IMG/VR virus record: IMGVR_UViG_3300045144_000057
Coordinates: 1 to 20,208 of that record
DNA length: 20,208 nt
Origin: a virus
Direction: 5' to 3' (one strand)
Part shown: piece by piece, positions 4,020 to 10,829 of the stretch
How positions within the stretch are numbered: the stretch's first letter is position 1
How the letters are laid out: the number at the start of each line of letters is the position of its first letter
The notes under the pieces: model-generated
Databases searched by the model: none
What the model was told of the DNA's origin: nothing
The model's input: the letters and a program-made list of their open reading frames with translations, nothing else
Made by a program: the position numbers and the translations under genes

Positions 4020-4036
4020 CCAAACTTTTAATTTTA
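4020..4036 (-). repeat. 17-bp repeat, copy 2
   Basis: Identical to 3146-3162. It spans the TAA stop of the glycine-rich adhesin gene and runs into the G tract before the next start (4009). Confidence 0.6.
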
Positions 4037-5317
4037 AAATATTGTTTTCCAAACATCACCTATATTTATTTTAATTCCTGCAATATCCTTCCAAGAATCT
4101 CCTATATTTATTTTATTTGAAGTGGCATCTTTCCAAACATCTCCAATATTTATTTTTACTAAAATTACCTGTAGAGTTGAAAATGAACCACCATCTCCAT
4201 TAGATCCTGCATTACCATTTTCTCCATCGTCTGCTTCTGATAATGTATACCAATGACTGCCCCCGGTGCCATAACTTCCCCCTGTTCCTGCACTATAATA
4301 TACATCTCCAGAATTCGTAATTATTGTATACCTGAAATATATATCTCCTCCATGGCCTCCACCGCCACCACCTCCGCCACCGCCTCCTGCCCCTGCTCCT
4401 GCTGTAGACTCGTGATAAGCTATCCCGTTTCCCCCGTTTCCCCCGTTTCCCCCATTTGTTCCTCCCGTATCTATTGATCCAGTAAAATTAATAATTCTTC
4501 CATTTAAATAGAAATTGACACCAGAATATCCTGCTAATCCTCCTCCGCCACCACCACCTCCGCCACCCAGGTGGGCAGAACCACTACCACTTCTTGTTGC
4601 GTCTCCTCCATTTGAACCATGGGTTTCTGCTCCTCCACCAGAAGTAACAGATGCCCCCGAACCATCATATTTAAGCGATACTGCTCCAGATCCTCCACCA
4701 CTATTCGATCCATTGTTCCCGTTATTTGCTGTGTCTTCTGTATCTAAATAAACGGCATTTCCACCATCAATATTTAATCCTCCGCCGCCTCCCCATCCGC
4801 CAGAACCTGCGACCCAGTCTCCTCCAAAAAACGAGACTGCAGCACCTCCGCCGCCGCCACCACCATAACCGCTTCCTTGATTTCCACCAGATCCTCCCAC
4901 GTTTCCACCATATGGCACATCTCCGCCACTTCCACCAGATCCCCCATTTGCAACACCCGGTGTAGAAATGGTGCCATCATCTGTTCCACTATTCCACGTT
5001 GTTTCAAAATCCTGGACCCTAATAACTCCCCCAAGTAAATTAATTGCGTCTCCAGCATTACAGATAACATCCCCATCAATTGTTGCTGTTCCTGTACATT
5101 TAATATATATTGCTGTTCCAGTATTAGAATAAAGTGATTTTAATGTTGTGCCAGAACCAAGAGTGAAATTTGTAAAATTAAAAACTTTATCAACTTTTAA
5201 AAATAAATCATTGTCAATTACCTTATAATCAACATTTTCTACTAAATTTCCATAAGTTTTTGTTGTTGTAGTAAAATTAACTTCGCCATCGGCACCAGTC
5301 CCAAAATTATGACCCAT
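4034..5317 (-). CDS. Glycine-rich tail adhesin
   Basis: A 427-residue protein in three parts. The N-terminal 110 residues are beta-rich (MGHNFGTGADGEVNFTTTTK). Residues from about 130 to 335 are dominated by GG, GGS and GGN runs, including stretches of 11 or more glycines. The C-terminus carries three tandem copies of a motif like KINIGDVWKD (KINIGDVWKDA, KINIGDSWKDI, KINIGDVWKTI). Glycine-rich sandwich folds are known from T-even gp38-type adhesins that bind host receptors, and a receptor-binding role fits the position among the fibre genes. The start directly follows the previous stop (TAAATG), so translation is coupled. Long in-frame glycine repeats make it prone to length variation. Confidence 0.75.
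   Translation of the reverse strand: MGHNFGTGADGEVNFTTTTKTYGNLVENVDYKVIDNDLFLKVDKVFNFTNFTLGSGTTLKSLYSNTGTAIYIKCTGTATIDGDVICNAGDAINLLGGVIRVQDFETTWNSGTDDGTISTPGVANGGSGGSGGDVPYGGNVGGSGGNQGSGYGGGGGGGAAVSFFGGDWVAGSGGWGGGGGLNIDGGNAVYLDTEDTANNGNNGSNSGGGSGAVSLKYDGSGASVTSGGGAETHGSNGGDATRSGSGSAHLGGGGGGGGGGLAGYSGVNFYLNGRIINFTGSIDTGGTNGGNGGNGGNGIAYHESTAGAGAGGGGGGGGGGGHGGDIYFRYTIITNSGDVYYSAGTGGSYGTGGSHWYTLSEADDGENGNAGSNGDGGSFSTLQVILVKINIGDVWKDATSNKINIGDSWKDIAGIKINIGDVWKTIF
4424..4453 (-). repeat. 9-bp tandem repeat with G-quadruplex potential
   Basis: The coding strand has three GGGGG tracts and a final GGG, separated by four-base AAAC loops, in a 9-bp period. It encodes consecutive Gly-Gly-Asn triplets. 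Four closely spaced G tracts can fold into a quadruplex in mRNA or single-stranded DNA, and 9-bp slippage would change fibre length while keeping the frame. Confidence 0.65.
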
Positions 5318-6161: not shown

Positions 6162-7664
6162 TCAATATACTCCTCCCGAAATTAATAAATTGCTTCCAAC
6201 AAGCCACGGACCAAGAACCGCCTTTTGGCTATTAAATTTGTTCCTTCCTTCCACATGAAATTTAAATGCCGTTTTTGTTGCATTAGATGTCCATAATTCA
6301 TAATGTGTTTGTACTCCTATACTGCCGATGGACGATTGAAAATTTGTTAAATATCCTTGTAATTCACTTGTTTCCAATGCTTTTTGATTTAATATTATTT
6401 CTTTAATTGTATCTTCAAATTTATCTACTTTTTTATTTAATCTAACAGAGAGAATATCTTCTTGGTATGTTGATGATGGACTAAATTGATATGATGATTC
6501 TATAATTGTATATTCTTGATTGTTTATTCCAAAATTAGGCAAATTAACAGTAACTCCTTCTCCGGGATTTAGATTAACTATTTTATTTAATTTTAAATTC
6601 CCTTCTATAATGGGATCTTTATTTTCTGTCAAAAAGGTGTTTGCTTTTTGACTTGCTTCCTCAAATGATTGAATATTTTTATCTACAATCAATTTTGTTT
6701 TCAATCCATAATTTTGAATGCTTGTATTATCTTGTCTATATTTTAATATTGGAGTTCCACGATCATAAGTTATAATAATACTTCCATTATTTGGAGGAAT
6801 ATTGTTTCCCGCCGATATACCTGAAGTAAAAATAATTTGTTTTTTATCAAAATCTACCAAATATTTAATATCGTCATATTGAGGATTATCCATTCCTTCA
6901 ATTCCGCCTGGCTGAATTTGTGATCCATTTATTGTAACATTTGTATTATGCGGTTTATCTGTTAACGTAAATACACTTCCTGTTCCATTCCCAATAAAAT
7001 TATCTTTATAACCTGTCAATATTCTGCGTCCATATACCCAAACAGAATTATATATATCATGGTCGTTATTTCTAAAACTTCCCTCTATTATATTTGTATT
7101 GTCTAATGTTTCTTCAGAAGGATTTAGCCCTCTTTGTTCAAAATATAATTCTTTATTTGGGCTGACAAAAAAATAAAATCCTGCAGTTTCTGCCAGACTC
7201 TTTATAGCATCAAATACATTTAGATGATTAAAAGTTATTCTGTCTATATTTGTATCCGTCGTTTTTACATTGTCTGTGCTTATTTCTGGTACATTGTTGT
7301 GCATTATATCTATAACTATTTGACTAATTTCTGTATCTCGATAAGCTATCGGTTGAATTAATCTATCTTGCATTATAGCCGAATAGTCTCTCCCGCTAAT
7401 TTCTAAATCCTCTTTTGTTCCTTCTCCCCCAAAATCTATATTTTCCAATACTCCTCCAAACAATAAATAATTTCCTTCTCCTTCATCTATATATATTTTT
7501 ATATCGTCATTTAAATTAAAACTATCTTTATGTTGTCCAAATTTATTATTAAGACTCATAGTAAAATTAGATGCTCCATTATTTTCTGATAGAGATCTAT
7601 TTACTCGAATATCTTTTATATCACTGATAATTTGACTATTTATATATACTTCTGTCTTAATCAT
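6162..7664 (-). CDS. Baseplate hub / tail-tip protein (gp27/gpD-like)
   Basis: A 500-residue protein. The first 120 residues (VYINSQIISDIKDIRVNRSL, then a Phe/Gly-rich barrel segment and ISGRDYSAIMQDRL) resemble the beta-barrel and helix of phage late-control D or gp27-like hub proteins. A segment LNVFDAIKSLAETAGFYFFVSPNKEL is the hallmark helix-strand of that family. An inserted domain (about 215-310) interrupts it, and a C-terminal part (after about 445) reads like a fibre-attachment domain. The start overlaps the tape-measure stop by 4 bases (ATGA). It should form the trimeric tail tip that closes the tube and docks the fibres. No separate distal tail protein was recognised, so this protein may cover that role too. 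Confidence 0.8.
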   Translation of the reverse strand: MIKTEVYINSQIISDIKDIRVNRSLSENNGASNFTMSLNNKFGQHKDSFNLNDDIKIYIDEGEGNYLLFGGVLENIDFGGEGTKEDLEISGRDYSAIMQDRLIQPIAYRDTEISQIVIDIMHNNVPEISTDNVKTTDTNIDRITFNHLNVFDAIKSLAETAGFYFFVSPNKELYFEQRGLNPSEETLDNTNIIEGSFRNNDHDIYNSVWVYGRRILTGYKDNFIGNGTGSVFTLTDKPHNTNVTINGSQIQPGGIEGMDNPQYDDIKYLVDFDKKQIIFTSGISAGNNIPPNNGSIIITYDRGTPILKYRQDNTSIQNYGLKTKLIVDKNIQSFEEASQKANTFLTENKDPIIEGNLKLNKIVNLNPGEGVTVNLPNFGINNQEYTIIESSYQFSPSSTYQEDILSVRLNKKVDKFEDTIKEIILNQKALETSELQGYLTNFQSSIGSIGVQTHYELWTSNATKTAFKFHVEGRNKFNSQKAVLGPWLVGSNLLISGGVY

Positions 7665-9376
7665 CTTCTAATTAGAACATTTAATTTTCTTTGCAATGCG
7701 TTAGAAATATCGTCTGCATCAATTCCATATATTCTATCTATATTTATTATTATGTTAATGCCATTTTCATCTAATTCATTAGGTTGTTTATCCATTTGCG
7801 CAACATTTACTGGTAATTGCATTATTTCTGGTCTTATTAATTTATTCAAATCTTTCACCCCAATCAAATTATCTAATTGATTAGTTTTAATTATTTCTCC
7901 CCTTTTTGTTATAATAAAATCATTTAAACTTATAACAGGATTTACTGTATGTGTTGGTTCTTCTTTGTTATCTTGATTTAGATTTGAAATATTTTGTTGT
8001 TCTGGCCGTTTATCTGGCTTTGAACTTTGAGATCCCCCATCAGAATTCTTTTTTGATGGTATTTCAAATCCCAATAAATCACTCAATTTTCCAAGAAGTC
8101 CTCCGCTCAATGCATTTGCTAAATCATAAATCCACCCCACCAAAGTTGATACTGCGTTTATAATTATATTTAATACTTCCCCCATTATTCTAAAAGTTGG
8201 AGTAAGATATTCTATTGCGGGCCCTAAAACAGTAAATATTGCATTTAGTCCAAGTTCTAATATAAGAGAAGTTATTTCTATAATAGGTTTCAATAACGGC
8301 ATTAATGCATTTAATAATTCTCCAAGCAATTCTGTCAACATTACTAATGCCGGCATTAAAGGTTCCAATGCATTTAACATTGCATCAAGTATAATGAATG
8401 ACAAATCCAATAAAGGATCTATTATTGGTATCAATGCATCAAAAATCTGTATAAATATATCAGCCAATCTAATGAGTAAAGGAGTTACTTCTGGCAAGAT
8501 TTCTCCAAGTTTATTTAATAATTTTGTTGCTAATTCAGTAAATGGCGGAATAAGTGGTTTAATTGCTGGCAAAACATCATTTAGAAAACTATCTGCCAGA
8601 CTTGATATCATTGGTAATAGGGCTGTTCCAACCTCCCGAGCCAGAAGTGTTATTGTATCTTGTAAATTTGAAAATTTCCCCTTAACTGTTTCTGCTTGTT
8701 TTGCCATAAGATTTTCAAATTTTCCCCCTTCTCCAGTCATATTATTAAATGCCGTTATAACCATATCAGAAGATATTTCTCCAGCAGAAACCATCTCTTC
8801 TATAGCCGTTACTGTTACTCCCAATTGGTTTGCTAATTGATCAAGCAATGGAACACCCGCAACAGCAAAGTCTCTTAATTCCCTGCCAGTTAATTTTCCT
8901 TGATTTCTAACCTGTCCAAGATTTAAAATAAGTCTTTGTAATCCTTCTTCTCCTAAACTAAGTCCTGATGCTACATCTCCTACACTTTTTAATGTTGGTA
9001 TAACATCATTTGCTTCAAACCCTACGGCCATTAATTGCTTTGCTGCTTTTTCTACTCCAACGAGAGTAAATGGAGTTTTTTTTGCAAAATCTGCTAATTG
9101 TGCCAAGAATACTTGTGCTTCCTCGGCAGATCCCAACATGGTAGTAAATGCTACTTTTGTTTGTTCAAAATCTGCTGCCACTTTTACAGAAGAAACCCCC
9201 AATGCGGCCATTGCTGTACCTACCCCCAAAATTGCAGAAGTGCTTATCTTCATAACGTTTGTTAATTTGTCTGTTGACCCCTCTACCTTGCCAAAAACAT
9301 TACTAAATTCATCAATAGCTTTTATTGTTATTGCTATAACTGCCCCTTCTGCAATTGCATTACCTATATTTACCAT
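7661..9376 (-). CDS. Tail tape-measure protein
   Basis: A 571-residue protein that sets tail length and is ejected with the DNA. The N-terminal third carries the conserved tape-measure core: VAADFEQTKVAFTTMLGSAE, AKKTPFTLVGVEKAAKQL and GQVRNQGKLTGRELRDFAVA, including the typical KLTGRELR motif. The middle (about 250-420) is a long run of hydrophobic helices with recurring Leu-x-Pro and Pro-Leu motifs, including likely membrane-active segments. A charged linker (about 430-470, SKKNSDGGSQSSKPDKRPEQ) leads to a conserved-looking tail ending in NALQRKLNVLIRR. It is short for the family, implying a tail of roughly 85 nm at about 1.5 angstrom per residue (inference). The start has no Shine-Dalgarno sequence and lies inside the chaperone -1 extension. 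Confidence 0.92.
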   Translation of the reverse strand: MVNIGNAIAEGAVIAITIKAIDEFSNVFGKVEGSTDKLTNVMKISTSAILGVGTAMAALGVSSVKVAADFEQTKVAFTTMLGSAEEAQVFLAQLADFAKKTPFTLVGVEKAAKQLMAVGFEANDVIPTLKSVGDVASGLSLGEEGLQRLILNLGQVRNQGKLTGRELRDFAVAGVPLLDQLANQLGVTVTAIEEMVSAGEISSDMVITAFNNMTGEGGKFENLMAKQAETVKGKFSNLQDTITLLAREVGTALLPMISSLADSFLNDVLPAIKPLIPPFTELATKLLNKLGEILPEVTPLLIRLADIFIQIFDALIPIIDPLLDLSFIILDAMLNALEPLMPALVMLTELLGELLNALMPLLKPIIEITSLILELGLNAIFTVLGPAIEYLTPTFRIMGEVLNIIINAVSTLVGWIYDLANALSGGLLGKLSDLLGFEIPSKKNSDGGSQSSKPDKRPEQQNISNLNQDNKEEPTHTVNPVISLNDFIITKRGEIIKTNQLDNLIGVKDLNKLIRPEIMQLPVNVAQMDKQPNELDENGINIIINIDRIYGIDADDISNALQRKLNVLIRR

Positions 9377-9757
9377 TTTTTCTGTTTGCTTTTCTTTTTT
9401 CTCTATTAAATTTATTCATCAACATTGTTGCCTGATTAAAATCTTTAAGAGACATATTTCTAACGTATTCTAATGTCCAACCATTAAAGAATTTACAGAG
9501 ACTCAATTCTGTTTCTGTTCTTCGGTTGGTTGGGGCAAAGGGTCGTGTTTTATAAGATCCATGATGGCTTTATTAAGTTCTATTCCTGTCTTAACATCTA
9601 TTTTGGATATTTCTTCTTGTTTTAGTCCTGTTGCAAAACCCAAAATTTTTTTAGCTGCTTCTGCCTTTGTTAGTCCATCTAACTCTAATGCTTCTATATA
9701 AGATATTTCTCTTAATTCGTATGTCTTTCCCTCTATATCTACTTTTTGTGTTTTCAT
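9360..9757 (-). CDS. Tail-assembly chaperone fusion by -1 frameshift (gpG-T type)
   Basis: The frame-0 gene reads to CCT TTG, slips back one base on CCCTTTG (9536-9542), and continues for 58 residues to a TAA at 9362-9360. The product is 132 residues: 74 from frame 0 and 58 from the -1 frame. The extension is protein-like (CKFFNGWTLEYVRNMSLKDF) with a basic, Lys/Arg/Asn-rich tail. In lambda gpG-T and many siphoviruses the frameshifted chaperone links the tape measure to tail-tube subunits. Gene order (tube, chaperone, tape measure) is exactly as expected. The extension overlaps the tape-measure start by 17 bases. I translated it by hand. The slip site is canonical but unproven. Confidence 0.82.
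9503..9757 (-). CDS. Tail-assembly chaperone, short form (gpG-like)
   Basis: An 84-residue acidic/helical protein (MKTQKVDIEGKTYELREISY, then EALELDGLTKAEAAKKILGF). The N-terminal strand pair followed by helices, and the position between tail tube and tape measure, match gpG-type chaperones. Translation without slippage ends at the TGA in 9505-9503, ten codons after the slip site. A good ribosome binding site, GGAGGAAAG, precedes the ATG. The tail after the slip site is QPTEEQKQN-like and probably unstructured. The short form should be the more abundant product. Confidence 0.85.
   Translation of the reverse strand: MKTQKVDIEGKTYELREISYIEALELDGLTKAEAAKKILGFATGLKQEEISKIDVKTGIELNKAIMDLIKHDPLPQPTEEQKQN
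9536..9542 (-). promoter_or_regulatory. Programmed -1 frameshift slippery site CCCTTTG
   Basis: The minus-strand heptamer C CCT TTG fits X-XXY-YYZ in the chaperone frame. After slippage the codons are CCC TTT and then GCC. The -1 frame is open from 9580 on the upstream side to 9360 downstream, so the heptamer lies inside the only window where a shift gives the long product. Confidence 0.78.
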
Positions 9758-9821: not shown

Positions 9822-10829
9822 TTAATATGGATTATACGAACCGATTACAGTTGGATTGACCCAATCTAATAAGTTCATACTTCCCGCGTTAACAACGAAA
9901 GTAGTTTCATTTATACCTTCTGATACGCTTGGCAATTCCATAGACGTTATTCTTGCTCCACTAACAGTTATAGTTACATGCTGGGATCCTGTTGTATCCG
10001 CATTCATATCTAACTTCCAATTTAATGTGCTGCCGCCCTTATAATACTGATTATAAAGCATAGCTCCAATATCTGTATCCAAATCTGCTGTTACATTGAG
10101 AGCATATTCTCTGTTTCCAAAGAAAGGTTCTCCGATAACTCTTGAACCATTTAGATAGTGTGGCCCAGTTATATTCTGATTTATTTCTATAGATAGTTCT
10201 TTTGTTGTATCTATAGAACTTCCAGCCATTGTAAGTGCGCAATCGCTCCATAAATATGGTCTTTGATCCGCTACAGTGACATTTGTCGTATTGCCAGAAC
10301 TAAAATCTACTCCTTGTCCAATATAGTTTGCCTCTACAACAACTTTTTCACCCTGTGCAGCTGTCAATGTTAAACTATCTATAACACATCCTTTTACTGT
10401 TCTAACGAAATTTTTGCCTGTTCCTGCCGCTGTTTTTGAATCCTCTATTGTGAAACTATATGGCGTATTTGCGTCTCTGGTTGTTCCACTAATGAATGGA
10501 TTTTGTATAACATCTGTGCCTATTTCACTTGTAACGTGTCTAAATGTTGTTCCAGAAGCCTCATAAACAGACCCAATTGCATGCGCAATTAAATTCATAT
10601 CTACAGGATGATATGTTATTGTTCCTGTAGCGTCGCTTGGTCCTCTTTCGTATCTACCAACACTTCTTGAATTATCTCCCAAGAAATAATCTGTTAGATA
10701 TCCTTCTGAATCATCCAAACTATGATCAGTAACTTCTCCAACCCATTTGCCTGTCGCCAAAGGAACCGCATATGTTCCACTTTCATAACGCATAACTACT
10801 TTGTTTTGATCACTAATGAATCTTGTCAT
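9822..10829 (-). CDS. Major tail tube protein
   Basis: A 335-residue beta-rich protein. It opens MTRFISDQNKVVMRYESGTY, with a segment SVGRYERGPSDATGTITYHP and a C-terminal strand set ending SMNLLDWVNPTVIGSYNPY. The sequence fits phage tail tube proteins of the duplicated-domain type, with inserted Thr/Gly/Asn-rich loops. It precedes the chaperone and tape measure, the standard place for the tube gene. Its ribosome binding site (AAAGGAGGT, 4 nt from the ATG) is among the strongest in the window, as expected for a protein needed in many copies. Tube identity rests mainly on gene order and composition. Confidence 0.8.
   Translation of the reverse strand: MTRFISDQNKVVMRYESGTYAVPLATGKWVGEVTDHSLDDSEGYLTDYFLGDNSRSVGRYERGPSDATGTITYHPVDMNLIAHAIGSVYEASGTTFRHVTSEIGTDVIQNPFISGTTRDANTPYSFTIEDSKTAAGTGKNFVRTVKGCVIDSLTLTAAQGEKVVVEANYIGQGVDFSSGNTTNVTVADQRPYLWSDCALTMAGSSIDTTKELSIEINQNITGPHYLNGSRVIGEPFFGNREYALNVTADLDTDIGAMLYNQYYKGGSTLNWKLDMNADTTGSQHVTITVSGARITSMELPSVSEGINETTFVVNAGSMNLLDWVNPTVIGSYNPY

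Follow-up and report, generated by a model that had tools for sequence, protein, structure and literature searches.

Does the short open reading frame between the tail tube and tape-measure genes of this virus continue, by programmed -1 ribosomal frameshifting, into the frame that overlaps its end, and if so, on which sequence would the ribosome slip? The locus lies in an IMG/VR record of an uncultivated siphovirus, and the whole stretch analysed, 20,208 bases, is called the window in the following. An original prediction, made from the letters of the window, had proposed a -1 frameshift on the heptamer CCCTTTG in a tail chaperone gene, comparable to lambda gpG-T. In lambda, gpG and gpGT are produced at a ratio of about 30:1 due to low-level -1 frameshifting; G binds the tape measure and T binds the tail tube subunit (PMC5009743). 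This G/GT arrangement occurs widely among long-tailed phages and also in some haloviruses (PMC5009743).

Reading frames and proteins of the chaperone locus

The gene order in the window, as read from open reading frames and Pfam and PHROG families, is tail tube, G, extension and tape measure (Table 1). The chaperone ORF thereby occupies the position of lambda genes G and T, with the tail tube upstream and the tape measure downstream. The heptamer CCCTTTG was found at 9542-9536 of the minus strand and is read in the chaperone frame as GAC CCT TTG, as predicted. The prediction that only the -1 frame continues, for 58 residues, agrees with the reading frames as well: read on the minus strand, the -1 frame runs without a stop from 9569 to a TAA at 9362-9360, 17 bases inside the tape-measure gene (ATG at 9376), and the third frame is full of stops. 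The extension is indeed overlooked by ORF calling. A shift at the heptamer would yield a product of 74 + 58 = 132 amino acids.

Table 1. Positions of the window features discussed in the text
Feature	Position	Length	Strand	Remarks
IMG/VR record window		20,208 bases		virus, uncultivated siphovirus
Tail tube protein	9822..10829	335 aa	-	Pfam Phage_tube_2 PF18906, 69.7 bits; query for collecting relatives
Short tail-assembly chaperone ORF (gpG-like)	9503..9757	84 aa	-	stop TGA 9505-9503; AlphaFold model pLDDT 85; PDB match 2OB9
Slip site C_CCT_TTG (putative)	9536..9542		-	P codon CCT, A codon TTG; from the sequence; same site in locus L008
Spacer, slip site to stem, conserved register	9530..9535	6 nt	-	
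5' arm of stem, CCAACCGAA	9521..9529		-	13-locus alignment A2
3' arm of stem, AATGGTTGG	9477..9485		-	over Asn-Gly-Trp codons of the extension
-1-frame extension (T-like domain)	9360..9536	58 residues + stop	-	sole open alternative frame; PHROG 166; 44-member alignment A5; three-helix model pLDDT 88
Tape-measure protein	7661..9376	571 aa	-	Pfam TMP_3 PF20155, 108 bits; PHROG tape-measure families

To judge what chance would produce, the sequence was shuffled. An open frame of 59 codons appeared in 0.4% of mononucleotide shuffles, whereas an in-frame X_XXY_YYZ heptamer fell into the overlap in 26% of codon shuffles. We therefore rejected the heptamer alone as proof; by itself it is weak evidence, and the case rests on conservation in relatives. 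Further heptamers stand in frame earlier in the chaperone ORF of the window, among them G_GGA_AAG (codons 10-11; 9731-9725, minus strand), which is identical to the lambda motif, and G_GGT_TTT (9641-9635, minus strand). These two are probably there by chance, and a slip at either would run into -1-frame stops. Elsewhere in the window, the minus strand encodes at 4034-5317 a glycine-rich protein, perhaps a tail fibre or adhesin, with three INIGDxWK repeats at its end.

The assignment of the short ORF to the tail chaperones, also part of the original prediction, is supported by its predicted fold and by its tube and tape-measure neighbours. The best PDB match of its model was the HK97 tail assembly chaperone 2OB9, with a TM-score of 0.64 and a probability of 0.99, at 20% sequence identity and a Foldseek E-value of 0.13. 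Matches in BFVD include several named tail assembly chaperones. The short ORF is thus predicted to adopt the HK97 tail-assembly chaperone fold. The two halves of the 132-residue product were modelled separately; the extension is predicted to form three helices, and a fold search with this model gave no informative match.

A search of the extension against chaperone families, suggested together with the prediction, had a divided outcome. The extension matches positions 160-200 of PHROG 166 (201 positions, tail protein), with an E-value of 3.7e-3 alone and 3.5e-4 as part of the fused product, but the short ORF of the window alone has no PHROG match. In relatives, the G of 19 out of 42 aligned loci matches this family, and in the fused products of two of them, in which the positions were read, the G part covers 34-93 and 34-103. 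Since G and the extension of the relatives both fall into PHROG 166, with one profile spanning G (34-103) and the extension (160-200), the two halves correspond to one protein family. The E-values are modest, about 1e-6 to 1e-3, and the window's own short form lies outside the profile; family support for it comes via the relatives, the model and the extension. Using the short ORF, or a relative's fused product, as a direct query of the phage collection returned nothing, and no family match to lambda's own proteins was seen.

Conservation of the extension and the putative slip site

The tube and tape-measure proteins, followed by a tube alignment, served as queries for relatives and gave some 80 loci on viral contigs. 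Wherever tube, chaperone and extension were readable, all of them in uncultivated viruses, the extension was found in the -1 frame (63 of 63 distinct loci) and never in the other frame. Relatives without the -1 frame, which would have spoken against the prediction, were thus not encountered. The 63 loci comprise 44, the window included, with an extension homologous to that of the window and 19 with a second extension type. For the part beyond the G stop, dN/dS was 0.07-0.30 in measurable pairs, with synonymous change saturated in several pairs, window versus L008 among them. Judged from these sequence comparisons, the extension in the 44 loci is homologous to that of the window and under purifying selection.

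The second type belongs to a different chaperone module at the same place (loci L006, L010, L013, L018, L026, L037, L046, L047, L051, L058, L061, L063, L078, L082, L084, L085, L096, L101 and L102). Its G is longer, its extension carries FLHxxGYxFFxIPxLTYPEI, and its putative slip sequences are A runs, or T6G in L102. The tube protein of L006 is 73% identical to that of the window despite the other chaperone module, so the modules seem to have been swapped between close relatives. With regard to hosts, scans of genome contigs with the tube alignment and the major capsid protein found no prophage. The MCM, PCNA and DnaB families are absent from ten long relatives and thus do not discriminate between bacterial and archaeal hosts; phages of bacteria as well as of archaea turn up among the distant matches of the portal and the tube.

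At the position homologous to CCT TTG of the window, 42 of the 44 loci carry NNT_TTT_C. The codon before TTT is most commonly GAT (36 loci) and otherwise GTT, TCT, AGT, AAT, ACT or GGT, while T_TTT_C is invariant in the 42. With each locus's own codon usage, the probability that all 42 P codons end in T is about 1e-8 and that all 42 Phe codons are TTT about 1e-9, both under an assumption of independence that the loci do not satisfy. A protein constraint may account for the invariant C, as this base gives Ser or Ala as the second residue of the extension. Two loci narrow the position down: in L071 the overlap is only about 12 nt, so that the shift has to fall within GAG_GAT_TTT_CAG, and in L088 TTT is immediately preceded by a stop of the -1 frame. 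The slip-prone in-frame sequence of the overlap is C_CCT_TTG in the window and in L008 (with the near-identical copies of L008), which are the only two such loci among the 44, and T_TTT_C, an A run or T6G in the others.

CCCTTTG thus stands as the putative slip site of the window, but in its own lineage it is the exception to a U_UUU_C site used at the same position with the same extension. Absence of the heptamer from related viruses had been named as evidence against the frameshift. Taken literally, this absence is found in 42 of 44 loci, yet in these loci the -1 frame persists and a slip-prone tetramer stands at that very spot, and the frameshift is not refuted. In a tree of the fused proteins, for which only a midpoint root is available, the window and L008 form a clade (support 99/85) nested among the TTTTC loci, so that one change suffices. 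Apparently, the slip site switched type in place, from U_UUU_C to CCCTTTG, in this two-virus clade.

A covarying stem downstream of the putative slip site

A search for a pseudoknot or hairpin 5-9 nt behind the heptamer had been suggested as a check of the original prediction. We scanned 65-nt stretches of all 37 loci, unselected, and obtained a mean folding z-score of -1.90 directly after the slip site, compared to +0.34 to -0.64 at other offsets; taken singly, about half of the loci show no significant structure there. Thirteen loci, including the window, show a stem CCA[AG]CC.../...GG[TC]TGG about 6 nt after the slip codon, with the 3' arm over Gly-Trp codons. In the alignment of these loci (A2), 93.2% of the cells are paired and 10 cells are changed on both sides. 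The covariation score was 0.400 versus 0.225 for shuffled alignments, none of 500 shuffles scored as high, and slid controls of the stem reached at most 50% pairing. Two features of A2 favour pairing: the 13 loci were chosen for showing the stem, and the arms were put in register by hand, with one spacer base dropped in L067. RNAalifold applied to a MAFFT alignment of the full stretches recovered the same stem.

A hairpin is thus present as a covarying stem with a 6-nt spacer, but the RNA of the window itself folds most stably in a competing register, with the 5' arm at 9533-9527 and a 2-nt spacer, which is 2.2 kcal/mol better than the conserved one. Loci L014, L056, L069, L071 and L073 have a stem that differs from that of the FGW group, with the 5' arm nearer to the slip codon and the 3' arm over Glu-Leu-Ala codons, so that the stimulator of these loci seems to have been formed anew at another place.

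Proposed mechanism and alternatives

From the conserved frame, the purifying selection, the shared PHROG 166, the predicted HK97 fold and the covarying stem, we confidently infer that the window carries a programmed -1 ribosomal frameshift of the lambda G/GT type in its tail-assembly chaperone gene. Most ribosomes would end at the 84-residue G form, which, by analogy to lambda, would coat the tape-measure protein. A minority would pause at the stem about 6 nt after the heptamer with tRNA-Pro (CCU) in the P site and tRNA-Leu (UUG) in the A site. After a backward slip of both tRNAs by one base, onto CCC and UUU, translation would resume in the -1 frame. The three-helix C-terminal domain of the resulting 132-residue GT form would then recruit the tail tube protein, again assuming that the roles are those known from lambda. 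In the relatives with NNT_TTT_C, the Phe tRNA could re-pair perfectly from UUU to UUU in a single-tRNA tetramer slip, which in the window's clade would have been replaced by the two-tRNA heptamer.

Other explanations of the broken frame have to be weighed against ribosomal slippage. Metagenome contigs often contain frame breaks of a single base, and an error of sequencing or assembly, or decay of the gene, could leave the same picture. However, the stretch recurs at 99.98-100% identity in two other metagenome records and the same -1 arrangement is present in every one of the 63 distinct loci, so this explanation is already contradicted and carries practically no weight. Slippage of the RNA polymerase instead of the ribosome could occur in the second extension type, where A runs reach 8-9 bases, but neither the window nor the 42 TTTTC loci have a long homopolymer at the site, which makes it highly improbable. 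We also consider it very unlikely that translation of the extension begins at a start codon of its own, by re-initiation or coupling behind the G stop, as in a separate small gene. In 13 of the 44 loci an ATG, GTG or TTG does lie behind the slip site and ahead of the conserved domain, with some of the ATGs adjoining the G stop, and the window has a TTG 11 codons into the extension. The other 31 loci, however, lack such a start, a Shine-Dalgarno-like sequence precedes a start in none, and the invariant TTTTC, the spaced stem and a PHROG 166 profile that spans both halves would stay unexplained.

Within ribosomal frameshifting, the type of slip in the TTTTC relatives can be read in two ways. A tandem slip on N_GAU_UUU, rather than a single-tRNA slip on U_UUU, would fit the GAT found before TTT in 36 of the 44 loci. 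In 19 of them the sequence is G_GAT_TTT, and G_GAU_UUU is a described site of pea enation mosaic virus (PMC5009743). On the other hand, the base before GAT can be A, G, C or T, and the codon itself can be replaced by any of the six others, while T_TTT_C never varies; a tandem slip therefore seems less likely. We lean towards a lineage-wide single-tRNA tetramer, U_UUU followed by C, with a stem about 6 nt downstream, of which the same two codons were converted into a two-tRNA heptamer in the clade of the window and L008.

IS elements use U_UU.U and U_UU.C tetramers. When tetramers are ranked in E. coli in the presence of a strong stimulator, U_UU.C takes second and U_UU.U third place, whereas U_UUG is weak (PMC4066793). 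The 42 relatives share the slip motif of these U_UU.N sites, which need a strong downstream stimulator in E. coli; unlike in IS elements, the gene concerned here is a tail chaperone, and the window itself has a heptamer. Mixed-type ZZN codons such as UUG shift less well in E. coli than UUU or UUC (PMC4066793), so the site of the window may be weak.

Compared to lambda, the locus agrees in its place between tail tube and tape measure, in its short and -1-extended forms, in a slip near the end of G and in an extension that reaches the tape-measure gene. It differs in the slip site, C_CCU_UUG instead of G_GGA_AAG, and in the long covarying stem after the site. The likeness to gpG-T claimed at the outset thus stands as to type, but the proper comparison is the whole G/GT class, where it is normal to find a heptamer different from GGGAAAG. 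In tail chaperones of actinobacteriophages, slippage on motifs outside X_XXY_YYZ has been proposed before (PRFect, PMC10885494), and tetramers are described for IS elements (PMC4066793), so neither half is a new kind. The window is one more tail-chaperone frameshift, ordinary in kind; the addition is that a U_UUU_C site runs through the family and has given way to a heptamer in the clade of the window. If the conversion is true, nature would have exchanged one slip mechanism for another while leaving product and stimulator as they were. In a family of this kind, most members escape a search restricted to X_XXY_YYZ heptamers. Homologous sites by the dozen, giving the same product from U_UUU_C, C_CCU_UUG and, in the swapped module, A runs, provide a series in which to study how the ratio of GT to G is held by balancing slip motif, spacer and stem against one another.
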